Assembly: GCF_000724625.1 (NCBI RefSeq)
Contig: NZ_CP007139.1
Coordinates: 4,526,001-4,590,000, forward strand
Length of the DNA stretch: 64,000 nt
From: Fimbriimonas ginsengisoli Gsoil 348
GTDB lineage: Bacteria; Armatimonadota; Fimbriimonadia; Fimbriimonadales; Fimbriimonadaceae
Reading direction: 5' to 3'
In this document: piece by piece, positions 23,735 to 51,957 of the stretch
Layout: every line of letters begins with the position of its first letter
Numbering within the stretch: position 1 is the first letter of the stretch
The notes under the pieces: model-generated
What the model saw: only the letters and a program-made list of their open reading frames with translations
What the model was told of the DNA's origin: nothing
Database searches by the model: none
Program-made: the position numbers and the translations under genes

Positions 23735-23850
23735 GATCCCTCCAGACGCGCCGTCTGGCAGGGTCCCACCATCTACTTGCGCAAACTCCCCGATCCTCTT
23801 TGCGTCTTCGCGCCTTTGCGTGACGCTGATCCGGTCAGACGAACCCCCAA
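23735..23850. repeat. Dispersed repeats upstream of the adaptor gene
   Basis: Contains the CCAGACG-CGC-CGTCTGG hairpin (23742-23758), also found at 43730-43754, and a segment at 23796-23824 that recurs at 50192-50221 next to the RAYT-like gene. No gene is seen in the gap. Confidence 0.65.
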
Positions 23851-26242: not shown

Positions 26243-27007
26243 GTGGCGCGAAAACCGACGCTTAGCCCGAGCAAAATCACCACTTACCTTGCCTGCCCGG
26301 TCAAGTACCGCTGGACCTACGTGGACGATCGCGGCAAGTGGTACCTGCGCTCCAAAAGCTACTACTCCTTTGGCAGCACGCTCCACCGGGTGCTCGAACG
26401 GTTCCACGACACTGGCGATGCCGGGGTGAACACAACCGAAGAGGTCATGGCCGCCTATGAAGAGAGCTGGATCGACGCCGGATACGCCTCCGCTGAGGAA
26501 CTGGCCGAGGCGTACGGCGAGGGGCGCGAGATCCTCGAGCGTCACGTCCAGCAAGCAACCGCCCAGCCGCGTGAGTCCAAAACGATCTTCGTCGAGCGCC
26601 AGTTTCGTCACGACATGGGCGAGTTCGCGTTGCTGGGCCGCGTCGACCGGGTCGACGAATATCCGGACGGAACGCTCGAGATCGTCGATTACAAATCCGG
26701 ACGCGAATCGGTGGAAGTCGAAGACGTGGCGACCGACATCGCCATGGCCTGCTACCAGCTTCTCCTCCGCCACAAGTTCCCCGGCGTCCCCATCCGCGCC
26801 CGGATCATCGCCTTACGAACCGGCCACTCGGCCGCCGCCTCGATGACCGACGAGGAAGCCGCCGACTTCGAGCAGACGATCCTACAGTTGGGCCGCGAGA
26901 TCCTCTCCGAGGAGTACCACGAGCTAACCCCCGTCTTCAAACCCCTGTGCCTCCACTGCGACTTCCTCCCCCTCTGCCGCAAACACCCAGAATTCGCCGA
27001 ACTCTAA
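26243..27007 (+). CDS. PD-(D/E)XK nuclease with Fe-S cysteine cage (Cas4/AddB C-terminal-like)
   Basis: 254 residues from GTG 26243. H48 (TLHRVLE), D135 (LGRVDRVD) and D149-Y-K151 form the nuclease core. C18 (TYLACPVKY) together with C236, C239 and C245 (CLHCDFLPLC) form the one-plus-three cysteine cage that holds a 4Fe-4S cluster in Cas4 and AddB/RecB-type nucleases. No CRISPR array, cas gene or helicase partner is nearby, so a stand-alone repair exonuclease is more likely than a Cas4. TAGACT immediately precedes the start codon and may be a -10 giving a leaderless mRNA. Confidence 0.88.
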   Translation: MARKPTLSPSKITTYLACPVKYRWTYVDDRGKWYLRSKSYYSFGSTLHRVLERFHDTGDAGVNTTEEVMAAYEESWIDAGYASAEELAEAYGEGREILERHVQQATAQPRESKTIFVERQFRHDMGEFALLGRVDRVDEYPDGTLEIVDYKSGRESVEVEDVATDIAMACYQLLLRHKFPGVPIRARIIALRTGHSAAASMTDEEAADFEQTILQLGREILSEEYHELTPVFKPLCLHCDFLPLCRKHPEFAEL

Positions 27008-27008
27008 C

Positions 27009-27165
27009 GTGGCACTGGCTTCCAGCCCGTGGGTCCCAAGGGCATCCTGCCCTTGGCCGTTTTCTCACGACCATCCTGGTCGTGAGCGTTCATCGGCTAG
27101 GAGCCGATGCTACGTTCACACGACCAGGATGGTCGTGATACACACGGGCTGGAAGCCCGTGCCAC
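27009..27165. repeat. 157-bp nested-palindrome element, copy 1
   Basis: Terminal inverted repeats at 27009-27031 and 27143-27165 match at 22 of 23 positions. Inside are three hairpins: CACGACCATCCTGGTCGTG, a CATCGGCT-AG-GAGCCGATG-like stem and CACGACCAGGATGGTCGTG. It fills the gap between two convergent genes, starting 1 base after the TAA of the nuclease gene and ending 2 bases before the stop of the M16 gene. No ORF. Confidence 0.9.
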
Positions 27166-27167
27166 CG

Positions 27168-35342: not shown

Positions 35343-38195
35343 ATGCACACCGCGCGTCTAATAGTGGCTTCGGCCCTACTCGTCCTGCCGGGACTTATCC
35401 TGGCCCAAAAGAAGCCGCTGGACCACAGTGTGTACGATGGCTGGAAGTCGATCCGATCGGCGTCCGTTAGCCACGACGGGAAGTGGGTTCTATTCGTTAT
35501 CGCCCCTCAAGAAGGGGATGCCGTCGCCACCATCCGAAGCGTCGCCGACGGGCACACGATCACGATTCCGCGAGCTTCGCAGATCCAGTTTACGAACGAC
35601 TCGAAGCACGTCGTCGCGCTAGTTATTCCGCCCTTCGCCGACACCCGCAAAGCGCGTCGCGACAAAGTGAAGCCGGAGGACATGCCGAAGAACGCCTTGG
35701 AAATCGTGGACCTCGGGGCCGGCCAAACCAAGACGATCGACCGCGTTACTAACTACCAGTTGGCCGAAGAAGATTCGAATTTTCTGCTCTACAAACCCGA
35801 ACCGCCGAAGGAAGCCGCCAAGCCTCCGACCACGCCTCCGGGCAAGAAAGATGAGGAAGAAGACCAGCGGCGCGGCGGTGGGGCCCGAGCGGGAGGCGCG
35901 CAACGCCCGGCGCCCGCCGCCGGCGGCTCCGCCGCGGGCGCTCCGCCAGCGAAGAAGGCGGGCGACTCGTATGTACTACTCGATCTCGGAACGGGGAAAG
36001 AAGAGACGATCAACGACGTTGCGAGCGCGAGATTCAACAAATTCGGCAACGTGATGGCCTACGCGGTCGCCAGCAAAGACGGCAAGACCGACGGAATCGT
36101 GTTGTACGACCTCCGCACGAAGAAGCGGCAAAACGTCGTCACGGCCCCCGGCAAATACCCCCGTATCGCCCTTTCCGACGACGCTTCTCTGCTTGCTTTT
36201 ACCACCGACAAGGACGATCAAAAGGCGAAGAAGCCGCTTCTCAGCCTCTACCTTTACGATCCTAAGAAGAACGTAACGAAGGCGGTCGGCGCGGACTCCA
36301 TGCCGAAGGATTGGACCTACAACGCCAACGGCGCCATCGACTTTAGCGACAAGAACACCCGCCTCATCTACCGGACCTCGCCCAAGCCGCTCCCCGATCC
36401 CGAAGAGAAGCCGGATGACGAGAAGGTGTCCGTCGACATCTGGAACTGGCAAGACGCGCGCCTGCAGCCGCAGCAACTTTTGATGGCTCAGTCGGAGCGA
36501 GACCGCGGCTACACCGCGATCTACGACATCGCGAGCGGAAAATCGATCCAGGTCGCCGACCGTGATCTACCCTCGGTCACCATCAGCGACAAAGGCGATG
36601 GCCGGTACGGACTCGCCAGCGACGAGCGCCCGTACGAGCGCGAAGGCTCCTGGAACCCCGGGAACGAAGACACTTACGTCATCGACCTGAAAACCGGCGC
36701 GCACACTCAGATCTCCAAACGATTCCGCGGCGGGGCGCAGCTTTCGCCCTCCGGACGGTACGTGGCGATCTACGATGCCGGGCCTAAAGCTTGGTTCGCA
36801 CTGGAGCCGGCCACCGGCAGGCGGGTCAGTCTGAGCAAAGGGATCACATCCCCGCTTGCCGACGAGCTCGACGATCATCCGGACGATCCGGCCCCTTACG
36901 GCCTGATCGGTTGGACGAAAGGGGACAGCCGCGCCATCATCGCCGACCGCTACGACCTTTGGGCTTGCGATCCTTCCGGCCAGGCCGCACCGGTTCGGCT
37001 AACGTCCGGTCGCGAATACACCACCCGTTACCGCCCGGTGAGCCTCGATCCGGATGCGGTGTATCTCGACACCGACGACATGCTTCTGGACGCGTTCAAC
37101 GAAGACACGAAGCAAAACGGATTGGCGAGGCTCCAAAATGGCCACCTGAACAAGATGTTCATGGCCGAGAAAAGCTTCCTCGGCTACCAAAAGGCGAAAA
37201 ACGCCGACACGCTGATCTACACGCGGCAGGACTTCGTGGAGTATCCCGACATTTGGCTTTCGAACACCCGCTTCGAAGCCCCTCAGAAGATTTCGGACGC
37301 TAATCCACAGCAGAAGGAATACAACTGGGGCAAAGCCGAGCTCGTCCGCTGGACCAGCCTGGACGGCATCCCTCTCCAAGGGATCCTGATTAAGCCGGAG
37401 AACTTCGACTACGGTAAGAAGTACCCAATGATCACCTACTTCTACGAGCGGAACAGCGACGAGCTGTACCGCTACAAGGCGCCCGCGCCGAGCGCGAGTA
37501 CGATCAATTGGCCGCTTTTCGCCAGCAACGGGTACTGCATCTTCATCCCGGATATCCCTTACAAGATCGGCTATCCGGGCGAGAGTGCGGTAAACGGCAT
37601 CCTGCCCGGCGTCCAGGCGATCCTGGGCCGCGGCTACATCGATCCGAAGCGAATGGGGATTCAGGGACAAAGCTGGGGCGGCTACCAGGTCGCTTACCTA
37701 GTCACCCGAACGAATATGTTCGCGGCGGCGGAGGCGGGAGCGCCCGTCGGCGATATGTTCTCCGCCTATGGCGGCATTCGATACGGCGCCGGCATCGTTC
37801 GGCAGTTCCAATACGAACACCAGCAGTCGCGCATCGGCGGCACGCCATGGGACGCGACCCTGAAGTACATCGAGAACTCCCCCATTTTCTGGGTGGACAA
37901 AGTCGAAACGCCTCTCATGATCATGTCGAACGACAAGGACGGATCGGTCCCCCACACCCAGGGAATCGAACTGTTCACCGCTCTTCGGCGGCTGAATAAG
38001 CCGTCGTGGCTGGTCGTGTACAACGGAGAGGACCACAACCTGATGGAGCGCAAGAACCGGAAGGACCTCTCGATCCGGCTAAGTCAATTCTTCGATCACT
38101 ACCTAAAGGGCGCGCCGATGCCCGTCTGGATGTCCCAAGGCGTCCCTGCCGTGGACAAGGGGCGTACGATGGGTACGGAGCTAGGCGGCAACTAA
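35343..38195 (+). CDS. Exported S9-family prolyl oligopeptidase-like peptidase
   Basis: 950 residues with a signal peptide (MHTARLIVASALLVLPGLILAQ). The N-terminal beta-propeller (30-690) is interrupted by a low-complexity Pro/Ala/Gly segment near 155-203. The alpha/beta-hydrolase domain has the triad S777 (GQSWGGY), D866 (SNDKDGSVPH) and H898 (GEDHNLM). The family cuts peptides after proline or small residues. TTGACA is found at 35310-35315 but no good -10. The product is larger than usual S9 enzymes. Confidence 0.9.
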   Translation: MHTARLIVASALLVLPGLILAQKKPLDHSVYDGWKSIRSASVSHDGKWVLFVIAPQEGDAVATIRSVADGHTITIPRASQIQFTNDSKHVVALVIPPFADTRKARRDKVKPEDMPKNALEIVDLGAGQTKTIDRVTNYQLAEEDSNFLLYKPEPPKEAAKPPTTPPGKKDEEEDQRRGGGARAGGAQRPAPAAGGSAAGAPPAKKAGDSYVLLDLGTGKEETINDVASARFNKFGNVMAYAVASKDGKTDGIVLYDLRTKKRQNVVTAPGKYPRIALSDDASLLAFTTDKDDQKAKKPLLSLYLYDPKKNVTKAVGADSMPKDWTYNANGAIDFSDKNTRLIYRTSPKPLPDPEEKPDDEKVSVDIWNWQDARLQPQQLLMAQSERDRGYTAIYDIASGKSIQVADRDLPSVTISDKGDGRYGLASDERPYEREGSWNPGNEDTYVIDLKTGAHTQISKRFRGGAQLSPSGRYVAIYDAGPKAWFALEPATGRRVSLSKGITSPLADELDDHPDDPAPYGLIGWTKGDSRAIIADRYDLWACDPSGQAAPVRLTSGREYTTRYRPVSLDPDAVYLDTDDMLLDAFNEDTKQNGLARLQNGHLNKMFMAEKSFLGYQKAKNADTLIYTRQDFVEYPDIWLSNTRFEAPQKISDANPQQKEYNWGKAELVRWTSLDGIPLQGILIKPENFDYGKKYPMITYFYERNSDELYRYKAPAPSASTINWPLFASNGYCIFIPDIPYKIGYPGESAVNGILPGVQAILGRGYIDPKRMGIQGQSWGGYQVAYLVTRTNMFAAAEAGAPVGDMFSAYGGIRYGAGIVRQFQYEHQQSRIGGTPWDATLKYIENSPIFWVDKVETPLMIMSNDKDGSVPHTQGIELFTALRRLNKPSWLVVYNGEDHNLMERKNRKDLSIRLSQFFDHYLKGAPMPVWMSQGVPAVDKGRTMGTELGGN

Positions 38196-38196
38196 C

Positions 38197-38352
38197 GTGG
38201 CACGGGCTTCTAGCCCGTGGGTTCCAAGGGCATCCTGCACTTGGCGTTCTTTCACGACCAAGATGGTCGTGAAGGTTCATCGGCTGGGAGCCGATGCTAC
38301 GTTCGCACGACCAGGATGGTCGTGATACACACGGGCTGGAAGCCCGTGCCAC
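38197..38352. repeat. Nested-palindrome element, copy 2
   Basis: 156 bases, aligning end to end with copy 1 (27009-27165) with a few scattered differences. The terminal repeats are 38197-38219 and 38330-38352. It starts 1 base after the TAA of the S9 gene and ends 9 bases before the trmFO start codon, so trmFO's promoter must lie within or before it. Confidence 0.9.
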
Positions 38353-38361
38353 CATAGGGGC

Positions 38362-47588: not shown

Positions 47589-49508
<1,920 letters not shown>

Positions 49509-49606: not shown

Positions 49607-49711
49607 GTGGCACGGTGCTTCCAGCCCGTGTGTATCACGACCATCCTGGTCGTGTGAGACCGCCAAGGGCTGGAAGCCCCTGGGACTCACTGGCAAAGAT
49701 GCCAGTGCCAC
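49607..49711. repeat. Nested-palindrome element, shortened variant (copy 3)
   Basis: 105 bases. The ends carry GTGGCACGGTGCTTCCAGCC (49607-49626) and the complement of GTGGCACTGGCATC (49698-49711); CACGACCATCCTGGTCGTG lies inside. Read on the minus strand it begins 1 base after the TAA of the RAYT-like gene, with the same TAACGTGGCAC junction as copies 1 and 2. Its other end faces the dnaK promoter region. Confidence 0.85.
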
Positions 49712-49712
49712 G

Positions 49713-50183
49713 TTACTCGGGCGCGTTCGCAACCCAGAGCGAGTCGTATTGTTCCGGATCTTCCGCTAGCTCGTTGGCCACGGGCGATTCGAAGATTCGC
49801 TCCCAGAACGCCTGGAACTCGTCGTCATCGCGAAGAATGCGGTCGTAGCTCTCGTTGTAAAAGGGTGGGAACCGTTCTTCGGTTCGCTTAATGATGTCGC
49901 GGCCAACCTTCGACTTCACCTTCTCCACAACGTCGCTCAGCTCGTAAGGCACCCCGGTCGGCGCCTCGCGCACCGTGAAGATCAGCTCCGTAACTTCCGG
50001 AAGGACGCACACGATCAGCAGATCCCACCGGCGTCCATCCGGCTTGATCAGGCCGCGCAACAGCATCCGCCGCTCAAACTCGTCGAGCGACCGCCGATGC
50101 TTGAACGTCACGTAGTAGTTGACGTCGTCCGCCCGCCAATGCGGCAGGCGCCCCCGCCAAATACTAAAATTCTGCCAGGCCAT
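49713..50183 (-). CDS. RAYT-like (REP-associated tyrosine transposase) protein with degenerate HUH motif
   Basis: 156 residues. The layout follows the Y1/RAYT family: RLPHWRADDVNYYVTFK at the start, a central strand, ELSDVVEKVKSKVGRDI, then ESYDRILRDDDEF (family YDRIIR, with the putative nucleophile Y113), and the NPVxAGL-like SPVANELAEDPEQYDSLWVA. The segment that should read MPNHVHLL is here VLPEVTELIF (residues 60-69), so both metal-binding histidines are lost. Known RAYTs mobilise REP palindromes; this one is probably inactive for cleavage or has been domesticated to bind palindromes. It sits directly against element copy 3. Confidence 0.75.
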   Translation of the reverse strand: MAWQNFSIWRGRLPHWRADDVNYYVTFKHRRSLDEFERRMLLRGLIKPDGRRWDLLIVCVLPEVTELIFTVREAPTGVPYELSDVVEKVKSKVGRDIIKRTEERFPPFYNESYDRILRDDDEFQAFWERIFESPVANELAEDPEQYDSLWVANAPE

Positions 50184-50259
50184 GGACCGAACCTCTTAGC
50201 GTCTTCGCGCCTTTGCGTGACACTCATCTCCCCTTCACTAGGAGCTAGTCAAATGTCTA

Positions 50260-50601
50260 CTACGACAGCGCCGACGCCCCGCGTTCGCCGGTACGTATGC
50301 GAATCGCGTCGATCACATCGCTGACGAAGATTTTGCCGTCGCCGATCTCGCCCGTCTGGCAGGCGCGGACAACCGCTTCCACCGCTTCCTCGGCCTGCTC
50401 GTCGGTGACGAACACTTCAAGGTGCAGTTTCGGCAGCAGATTCACCGCATAGGTGCTGCCCCGATACTTATCGGTCCGGCCAAGTTGACGGCCGTAGCCG
50501 CGGATCTGCCCGACACTGAGGCCAAAAACGCCGACATCCTCTAGAGACTGCTTTACGTCCTCGAGTTTGTTGACGCGAATATACGCTTCGATGCGCTTCA
50601 T
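50260..50601 (-). CDS. glnB: P-II nitrogen regulatory protein
   Basis: 113 residues from ATG 50601, preceded by GGAG 7 bases away; a GTG at 50613 would add four residues. The T-loop GYGRQLGRTDKYRGSTYAV keeps Y51, the uridylylation site of proteobacterial GlnB, and TGEIGDGKIFV (83-93) is the conserved ATP/2-oxoglutarate C-loop. It senses 2-oxoglutarate and ATP/ADP and controls nitrogen targets such as glutamine synthetase or ammonium channels. No amtB is adjacent. Confidence 0.94.
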   Translation of the reverse strand: MKRIEAYIRVNKLEDVKQSLEDVGVFGLSVGQIRGYGRQLGRTDKYRGSTYAVNLLPKLHLEVFVTDEQAEEAVEAVVRACQTGEIGDGKIFVSDVIDAIRIRTGERGASALS

Positions 50602-50703
50602 AGTTCGCTCCACGGACGGTACCCCGTTCCGCCTCGTTTAAGTTGGCGCTAGGTTAAGAAGACCCAACCTTCTCGCGCCGTTTTCCACCGTCTGCCCGTC
50701 CTG

Positions 50704-51957
50704 ATGAGTGTGAGCCGTCGGTTTGCAATCTGGACGGCCGTCGTGAGTTTCGGCGGCGCGGCGCTCCTCACGGTTTTCGCCGGGCTCGCCCTTCGACACG
50801 ATTCCGACTCCGCCGTCGGATGGGTCTATGCGTTAGCCGCCTCGCTGCTCGCCATCGCCGGAGTGCTGGAACAGACGATCCTCCGCCGGGCCCACGACGA
50901 GATCACGCACCGGCAAAGCCAGGCGGATGTCCTGCAGAGCCAGTTCCAGGAGCAGCGCCGAGCCGTCGACGAGCTTGCCGACGGCCTCGACGTCGCCGTA
51001 TTCATTTGCGACGGCCGCGGCTCCGTCTTATACGCCAATTTACGGGCTCGCCAGCTTTTCCAGTTCGAAGATCCGCTCGGGCGCAGCCTGCTGGCGGTCA
51101 CCCTCTCGTACGACCTCGAGCAGCTCGTCCTCCGGGCGGCAAAGTCGGGCGAAGCCGCTTATGCCGAGCTATCTTTTTCCTATCCCGGTCAGCGGATCGG
51201 CTTAGCCAAAGCATGGATTACCGGGCAGCCGCCCGGCCGGGTTTTTCTGTCGGTGTACGACGTAACCGATCTGCGGCGCTTGGAGACGATTCGAAAAGAC
51301 TTCGTCGCTAACGTCTCGCACGAGCTGCGAACGCCGATGACGATGATTCGCGCGATGGCCGAGACGCTTCAGGATGAAGCGAAGCCGGAGGACGAGTTGG
51401 CCAACCGTTACCTGCCCCGGATCATTGGCGAAATCGATCGGCTGTCGATGATCTCCCACGACCTTCTCCAGCTTTCGAAGGCCGAGTCGAATCCGGTCGA
51501 AAAGCAAACCTGCGACCTGGCCGCCGTCGTTCGCGAGGCAGTGGACCACCTTCATGAGCGTGCCGTCGAAAAGGGGCTCGCCCTCTCCTACGAAGGATTG
51601 CCGCTGCTGGTGGTCCAAGCCGATCCGACCCAGATGAGCCAGATCGCGATAAACCTCGTGGAGAACGCAATCAACTACACCACCGCCGGCTCGGTCGTAG
51701 CATCTGTGCGAGAAGAGCCGGAATTTGCCGTCTTCGAGGTAAAGGACACCGGCCTAGGCATCGCCATCGAACACCACCGCCGCGTTTTCGAGCGCTTCTA
51801 CCGGATCGACAAAGGGCGCAGCCGCACCACCGGCGGCACCGGCCTAGGCCTCAGCATCGTGAAACACATCGCCGAAGCCCACGGCGGCAGCGTCTCCCTA
51901 GACAGCACCCTAAACGAGGGTTCGACGTTTGCGGTGCGGATACCAATCGGGGAATAG
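50704..51957 (+). CDS. Orphan PhoR/WalK-like sensor histidine kinase
   Basis: 417 residues. Two N-terminal membrane helices (9-29 and 38-58), a coiled segment, a PAS-like domain (about 80-190), then the HisKA dimerisation domain with H206 in NVSHELRTPMTM, and a HATPase_c domain with the N box NLVENAINYT, G1 DTGLGI, the F box FERFYRID and G2 GGTGLGLSIV. No response regulator adjoins it; the nearest single-domain regulator is at 17601. It is divergent from the P-II gene across a 102-base gap. Confidence 0.93.
   Translation: MSVSRRFAIWTAVVSFGGAALLTVFAGLALRHDSDSAVGWVYALAASLLAIAGVLEQTILRRAHDEITHRQSQADVLQSQFQEQRRAVDELADGLDVAVFICDGRGSVLYANLRARQLFQFEDPLGRSLLAVTLSYDLEQLVLRAAKSGEAAYAELSFSYPGQRIGLAKAWITGQPPGRVFLSVYDVTDLRRLETIRKDFVANVSHELRTPMTMIRAMAETLQDEAKPEDELANRYLPRIIGEIDRLSMISHDLLQLSKAESNPVEKQTCDLAAVVREAVDHLHERAVEKGLALSYEGLPLLVVQADPTQMSQIAINLVENAINYTTAGSVVASVREEPEFAVFEVKDTGLGIAIEHHRRVFERFYRIDKGRSRTTGGTGLGLSIVKHIAEAHGGSVSLDSTLNEGSTFAVRIPIGE

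Follow-up and report, generated by a model that had tools for sequence, protein, structure and literature searches.

A family-wide, probably non-catalytic RAYT/TnpA_REP-derived protein of Fimbriimonadaceae, often encoded next to glnB

The locus

The window, the whole stretch of DNA analysed here, comprises 64,000 nucleotides and covers positions 4,526,001-4,590,000 of a complete 5.23-Mb genome. It contains a minus-strand gene for a 156-residue protein related to the REP-associated transposases (RAYTs) and termed here the dead RAYT, for the loss of catalytic residues described below. The features of the locus are as follows.

47589..49487, minus strand: dnaK (HSP70), downstream of the dead RAYT gene (PF00012, E=1e-253)
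49607..49711, no strand assigned: 105-bp composite REP element with GTGG heads and four hairpins, not judged a functional part of the gene
49713..50183, minus strand: probably non-catalytic RAYT/TnpA_REP-derived protein, 156 aa, a single-copy, family-wide orthologue (NF047646, hhalign, 4er8, distribution and dN/dS)
50260..50613, minus strand: glnB (nitrogen regulatory protein P-II), 76 bp upstream of the dead RAYT gene (PF00543, E=1.6e-24)
50704..51957, plus strand: PhoR-like sensor histidine kinase, divergent from glnB (HisKA and HATPase_c; synteny cluster c1)

The real start of glnB is probably at 50601. A 42-bp repeat containing GCGTCTTCGCGCCTTTGCGTGA occurs twice in the window (23790-23831 and 50187-50228, 90% identical), and its second copy sits between glnB and the dead RAYT gene. 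An Rfam search of the window returned one tRNA only.

Homology and predicted fold

The gene had been described as RAYT-like in a preliminary description made from the sequence, and this assignment is borne out. The NCBIfam model REP_Tyr_transpos (NF047646) matches residues 24-147 with E=1.2e-7 (31.7 bits, under the curated threshold of 80), and the same model matches 40 of 50 members of the dead family. A Pfam search of the protein gave neither a Y1_Tnp match nor a credible match to any other Pfam family; the profile search proposed in the preliminary description succeeded with NF047646 and not with the Pfam model. Profile-profile alignment by hhalign of the dead family with ten intact RAYTs gave E=2.3e-28 over 139 columns. 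An AlphaFold2 model built from 50 orthologues (pLDDT 88.7) has as its top structural match 4er8, the E. coli TnpA_REP in complex with a REP hairpin (Foldseek E=2e-6, Z 13.5, 138 residues), and other Y1 transposases rank after it with Z of about 10. The hmmsearch of the dead-family profile against PDB sequences yielded nothing above chance, and the link to 4er8 runs through structure and through the intact-RAYT profile. The second-best fold class for the model is that of Thg1 and Thg1-like tRNA guanylyltransferases (Z up to 9.1), which are also palm/RRM-like, but no sequence support for this relationship was found.

The protein is therefore a true RAYT/TnpA_REP homologue (class 2 TnpA_Y1), with full-length homology and the same predicted fold. 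It has the N-terminus PHW...TYfvTFR of nearby intact RAYTs, and the beta-4 segment ESYDRIxRD is a further feature in common with RAYT/TnpA_REP. The IS200/IS605 TnpA proteins (Y1 of IS608 and ISDra2) belong to the same HUH/Y1 fold class (Z about 9-10); unlike them, the dead RAYT lacks the catalytic residues and occupies a fixed locus, with no mobile element seen around it.

Lost catalytic residues and conserved regions

Catalytic positions were compared in an alignment of 53 non-redundant dead and 49 intact sequences. The positions and regions that bear on function are listed below, all on the minus strand.

49797..49799: former catalytic tyrosine position (E. coli Y115), now R129, with the Y---NP signature lost (alignment to 4er8)
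49827..49862: conserved beta-4 region F-[YF]-x-E-S-[YF]-D-R-I-x-R-D, residues 108-119 (family alignment)
49986..49994: former HUH triplet, now V64-T65-E66 and in the family any-[T/S]-[E/D] (53 dead vs 49 intact rows)
50130..50144: PHWRA motif before beta-1, residues 14-18, invariant in 50 members

The segment MPDHMHLL of intact relatives aligns to LPEVTELI, which is free of histidine, as the preliminary description had noted. The first histidine of the HUH motif is present in 49/49 intact and 0/53 dead rows and the second in 48/49 and 1/53, respectively; no dead row has both, while intact rows read histidine, hydrophobic residue, histidine (H-[L/V/I/F/Y/M]-H). The preliminary description had missed that the catalytic tyrosine is gone as well (0/53 dead vs 47/49 intact); the window protein reads R129...SP. 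By this alignment, the active-site residues for single-stranded DNA hairpin cleavage and strand transfer are absent from the dead RAYT.

The old HUH strand has not been left to vary freely. The first-histidine position is variable in dead rows (1.5 bits), but the middle (U) position, hydrophobic in intact RAYTs, is Thr in 49 and Ser in 4 of the 53 dead rows, and the second-histidine position is now Glu or Asp in 48 of them. The strand thus holds a new conserved state and is not simply drifting. Within the dead family H29 (50097-50099) and T65 (49989-49991), the latter replacing the hydrophobic U residue, hardly vary, which hints at a new function on the side of the old active site.

Conservation is highest elsewhere. 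Sixteen columns are invariant among 50 divergent members, and information per residue reaches 3.9 bits in the PHWRA linker, 3.7 bits in beta-4 (FYxESYDRIxRD) and 3.5 bits in beta-1, compared with 2.3 bits in the helix that formerly carried the tyrosine. Contacts to the guide tetranucleotide in E. coli TnpA_REP come from beta-1, from the area around beta-4 and from the C-terminal tail; Q95, residue 100 and R104 are named among the contacting residues (PMC8266576). The best-conserved regions of the dead family (PHWR linker, beta-1 and beta-4) thus correspond to guide-contact regions of TnpA_REP. In the alignment to 4er8, residue 100 (E in the 4er8 chain) corresponds to D114, which is more than 90% conserved, and R104 corresponds to the invariant R118. 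Q95 aligns to Y109 and is not kept in the dead family (Y/F/G), and the conserved W94 of TnpA_REP is replaced by Phe. Judged from sequence, the features for binding are mostly retained and those for cutting are all gone.

One alternative possibility is that the fold was reused for other chemistry, for example with the near-invariant T65, E66 and H29 and the invariant H15. The new T-[E/D] pair on the old active-site strand and the near invariance of H29 and T65 are what such an enzyme would offer. However, the sequence shows no obvious second invariant nucleophile or metal cluster and conservation peaks in the binding regions rather than in the old pocket, and we regard a new enzymatic activity as improbable.

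Distribution, origin and selection

The gene is present in 80 of 85 Fimbriimonadaceae genomes, nearly always as one copy and of the dead type. The five genomes without it are 68-89% complete assemblies, and every genome that is at least 90% complete has it, as do two genomes of only 1.5 Mb (L224, L225). Low copy number and vertical inheritance are traits it shares with RAYTs. Matches in the phylum outside this family are weaker, and those that were read have an intact HUH, with one HVQ. A scan of the genomes of 84,980 species returned 56 loci, whose record titles are Armatimonadota or unspecific with the single exception of Methanoregulaceae. That exception is a contig filed as a Methanoregulaceae archaeon (JADZEW010000024.1, L140) with a dead RAYT at 65% identity; since it resembles a Fimbriimonadaceae genome (G030), the bin is probably contaminated.

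In the tree, a single long branch supported at 100/100 separates the dead clade from the other sequences, indicating that this clade has one origin. The dN/dS ratio of close pairs is 0.018-0.185. In 28 of 70 well-assembled family genomes the gene is kept where no Y1_Tnp is detectable; some RAYTs recognised by NF047646 may escape the Pfam model.

The 105-bp element and intact RAYTs

The preliminary description had placed a 105-base palindromic element one base beyond the stop codon and had raised the possibility that the protein binds palindromes. The element itself is there, exactly 105 bp long; it reads GTGGCAC...GTGCCAC, one base separates its end from the TAA stop (49713-49715), and it folds far better than shuffled sequences (z=-6.0). 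The count of palindromes confirms that it is a repeat. In the window's genome, at least 41 near-full-length copies were scored among about 120 candidates, and at least 115 GTGG-hairpin modules (GTGGCAYGGGCTTCCAGCCC) were found, compared with 0 in the control. Thirty aligned copies have sharp ends, from GTGGCA[C/T] to CCAGTGCCAC, and four hairpins each. The head, which in most copies is GTGG instead of GTAG or CGTC, is unusual, but in one tested system a substrate changed to GTGG was still cleaved, at CC or CA (PMC8266576). The element resembles REP, BIME and REPIN sequences as a multicopy, interspersed hairpin repeat with inverted pairs and with an intact RAYT that has a module on both sides. 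It differs from them in its GTGG head, its composite of four hairpins and its restriction to one species among the 41 genomes searched. Longer composite relatives lie at 27004-27166 and 38192-38357 of the window, with GTAG-headed hairpins (GTAGCATCGGC) nested inside, and the GTGG and GTAG hairpin families thus form mosaics.

A partnership of gene and element is rejected: the gene is family-wide, whereas just 1 of the 41 genomes searched has the element, which is absent from 40 related genomes at E<=0.001. Orthologues of the gene have no such element at their stop. Intact RAYTs with REP flanks lie elsewhere in the window's genome. The one at 2,235,689-2,236,000 has an element-end module on either side, in inverted orientation (36 nt, 100% and 89% identity), and a second, at 1,982,590 (L041), lies between inverted GTAGCGTCGGCG GTAG hairpins. 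Inverted REPs on both sides constitute the REPtron layout described for RAYTs (PMC2817692). The dead RAYT gene has no inverted flanking REPs in the window's genome, only one element on one side, and is not tied to a repeat family. The mobiliser of the 105-bp element is likely the intact RAYT at 2.236 Mb. Because the element is confined to one genome and a REPtron with an intact RAYT exists elsewhere, the copy beside the dead gene is best explained by a single chance insertion into an intergenic gap of 225 bp.

Intact RAYTs were also found embedded in frame within host ORFs (L232, L216, L217, L218), and their flanking REPs are read as peptides (GTGFQP, HGLEARAT, GRTGVSPV). In the window's genome, one splits a zinc-type alcohol dehydrogenase ORF (L232, 2234000-2238000). 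Another interrupts an ORF for a Type ISP restriction enzyme; L218 seems to be related to that ORF, with the insert at another point, and L217 resembles a DNA methylase. ORFs of 500-1085 aa contain several further RAYTs. This looks like frame-preserving insertion, which is known for palindromic elements in Rickettsia.

These observations bear on a further alternative, that the dead RAYT is a dominant-negative protein which occupies REP hairpins and restrains active RAYTs. Its homologous fold and largely retained guide-contact region would suit such a role, active RAYTs or Y1 transposases also occur in most family genomes, and a REP element abuts the gene in the window's genome. However, the 105-bp element family is limited to one species, and the gene persists in the 28 of 70 well-assembled genomes without a detectable Y1_Tnp, including two of 1.5 Mb (G152, G153). 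Four genomes (G006, G016, G021, G022) have no match to either RAYT model at the thresholds used. A role only in restraining REPs is thus unlikely.

Linkage to glnB and dnaK

The window carries the full gene order, with the histidine kinase divergent from glnB and with glnB, the dead RAYT gene and dnaK following one another. Among the 56 other loci, glnB is the immediate same-strand upstream neighbour in 22, at a distance of no more than 110 bp, and lies 0.6-1.0 kb upstream on the same strand in 9 more; dnaK lies downstream on the same strand in 13. In 8 of the 22 close loci, glnB overlaps the dead RAYT gene, by 1 base in four and by 4 bases in four. Overlaps of 1 or 4 bases are the usual sign of translational coupling. 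At other loci one or both neighbours are lost while the dead RAYT gene stays. From this neighbour pattern across loci, we infer an ancestral locus of glnB, dead RAYT gene and dnaK, the gene having been captured between the other two in the ancestor. The PhoR-like histidine kinase would also belong to this ancestral arrangement. In about 25 of 57 loci the gene shows no operon linkage with glnB, and the tie to P-II may therefore be only ancestral.

The flanks of orthologues show no conserved hairpin just upstream or downstream (mean folding z of -0.7 and -0.8 in 57 and 56 loci), so that no target for the dead RAYT was found there. A few strong single hairpins in these flanks may be terminators.

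It is also conceivable that the protein has lost nucleic-acid binding and serves as a protein-protein adaptor, for instance as a P-II receptor or a DnaK partner. The operon or overlap with glnB and the position of dnaK downstream point in this direction, but the gene is kept where both neighbours are gone, and its best-conserved residues are those common to DNA-binding relatives. Such an adaptor seems quite unlikely.

A proposed domesticated hairpin-binding regulator

A decaying pseudogene whose ORF was kept by chance would accord with the broadest superfamily survey consulted, which filtered out members without HuH and Y as probably non-functional (PMC6006769), but retention in 80/85 genomes, a single clade on a branch supported at 100/100, the low dN/dS and the 16 invariant columns exclude it.

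The reading that we favour, with a rough probability of 0.55, is that the dead RAYT is a non-catalytic, domesticated hairpin-binding regulator linked to P-II. On this view, the ancestor of the Fimbriimonadaceae captured a RAYT/TnpA_REP transposase in a single event and turned it into a non-catalytic host protein. The HUH/Y1 fold would have been retained together with the face that in TnpA_REP reads a tetranucleotide beside a folded, single-stranded hairpin. Since the two metal-binding histidines, the tyrosine nucleophile and the NP signature are lost, the protein should bind and not cut. It would act as a structure- and sequence-specific regulator that binds single-strand hairpins of DNA or RNA, and binding of palindromes is plausible. 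The tie to P-II is suggested by the operon structure; the protein would be made together with P-II, and the regulator would thus be tied to the nitrogen or energy state. Domestication, which the preliminary description had raised, is strongly supported by family-wide single-copy retention, purifying selection, one origin, lost catalytic positions and largely kept guide-contact regions. That the whole family employs this dead, hairpin-reading transposase for P-II-coupled, global regulation of RNA or single-stranded DNA is a tentative and rather doubtful extension.

RAYTs have been called domesticated transposases and, to our knowledge, those studied keep their nuclease. No paper on a catalytically dead, selected RAYT was found in the openly accessible literature searched. 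The dead clade shows that a RAYT without HuH and Y can become fixed and strongly selected throughout an entire bacterial family, whether or not the genome also has active Y1 transposases. Nature would here have cleanly separated the binding of hairpins from their cutting, and the clade offers a defined gene with which to ask how a RAYT can serve its host. If the extension to a P-II-coupled global regulator is true, the logic of the dead RAYT would resemble that of a nuclease-dead CRISPR effector which serves only to bind.
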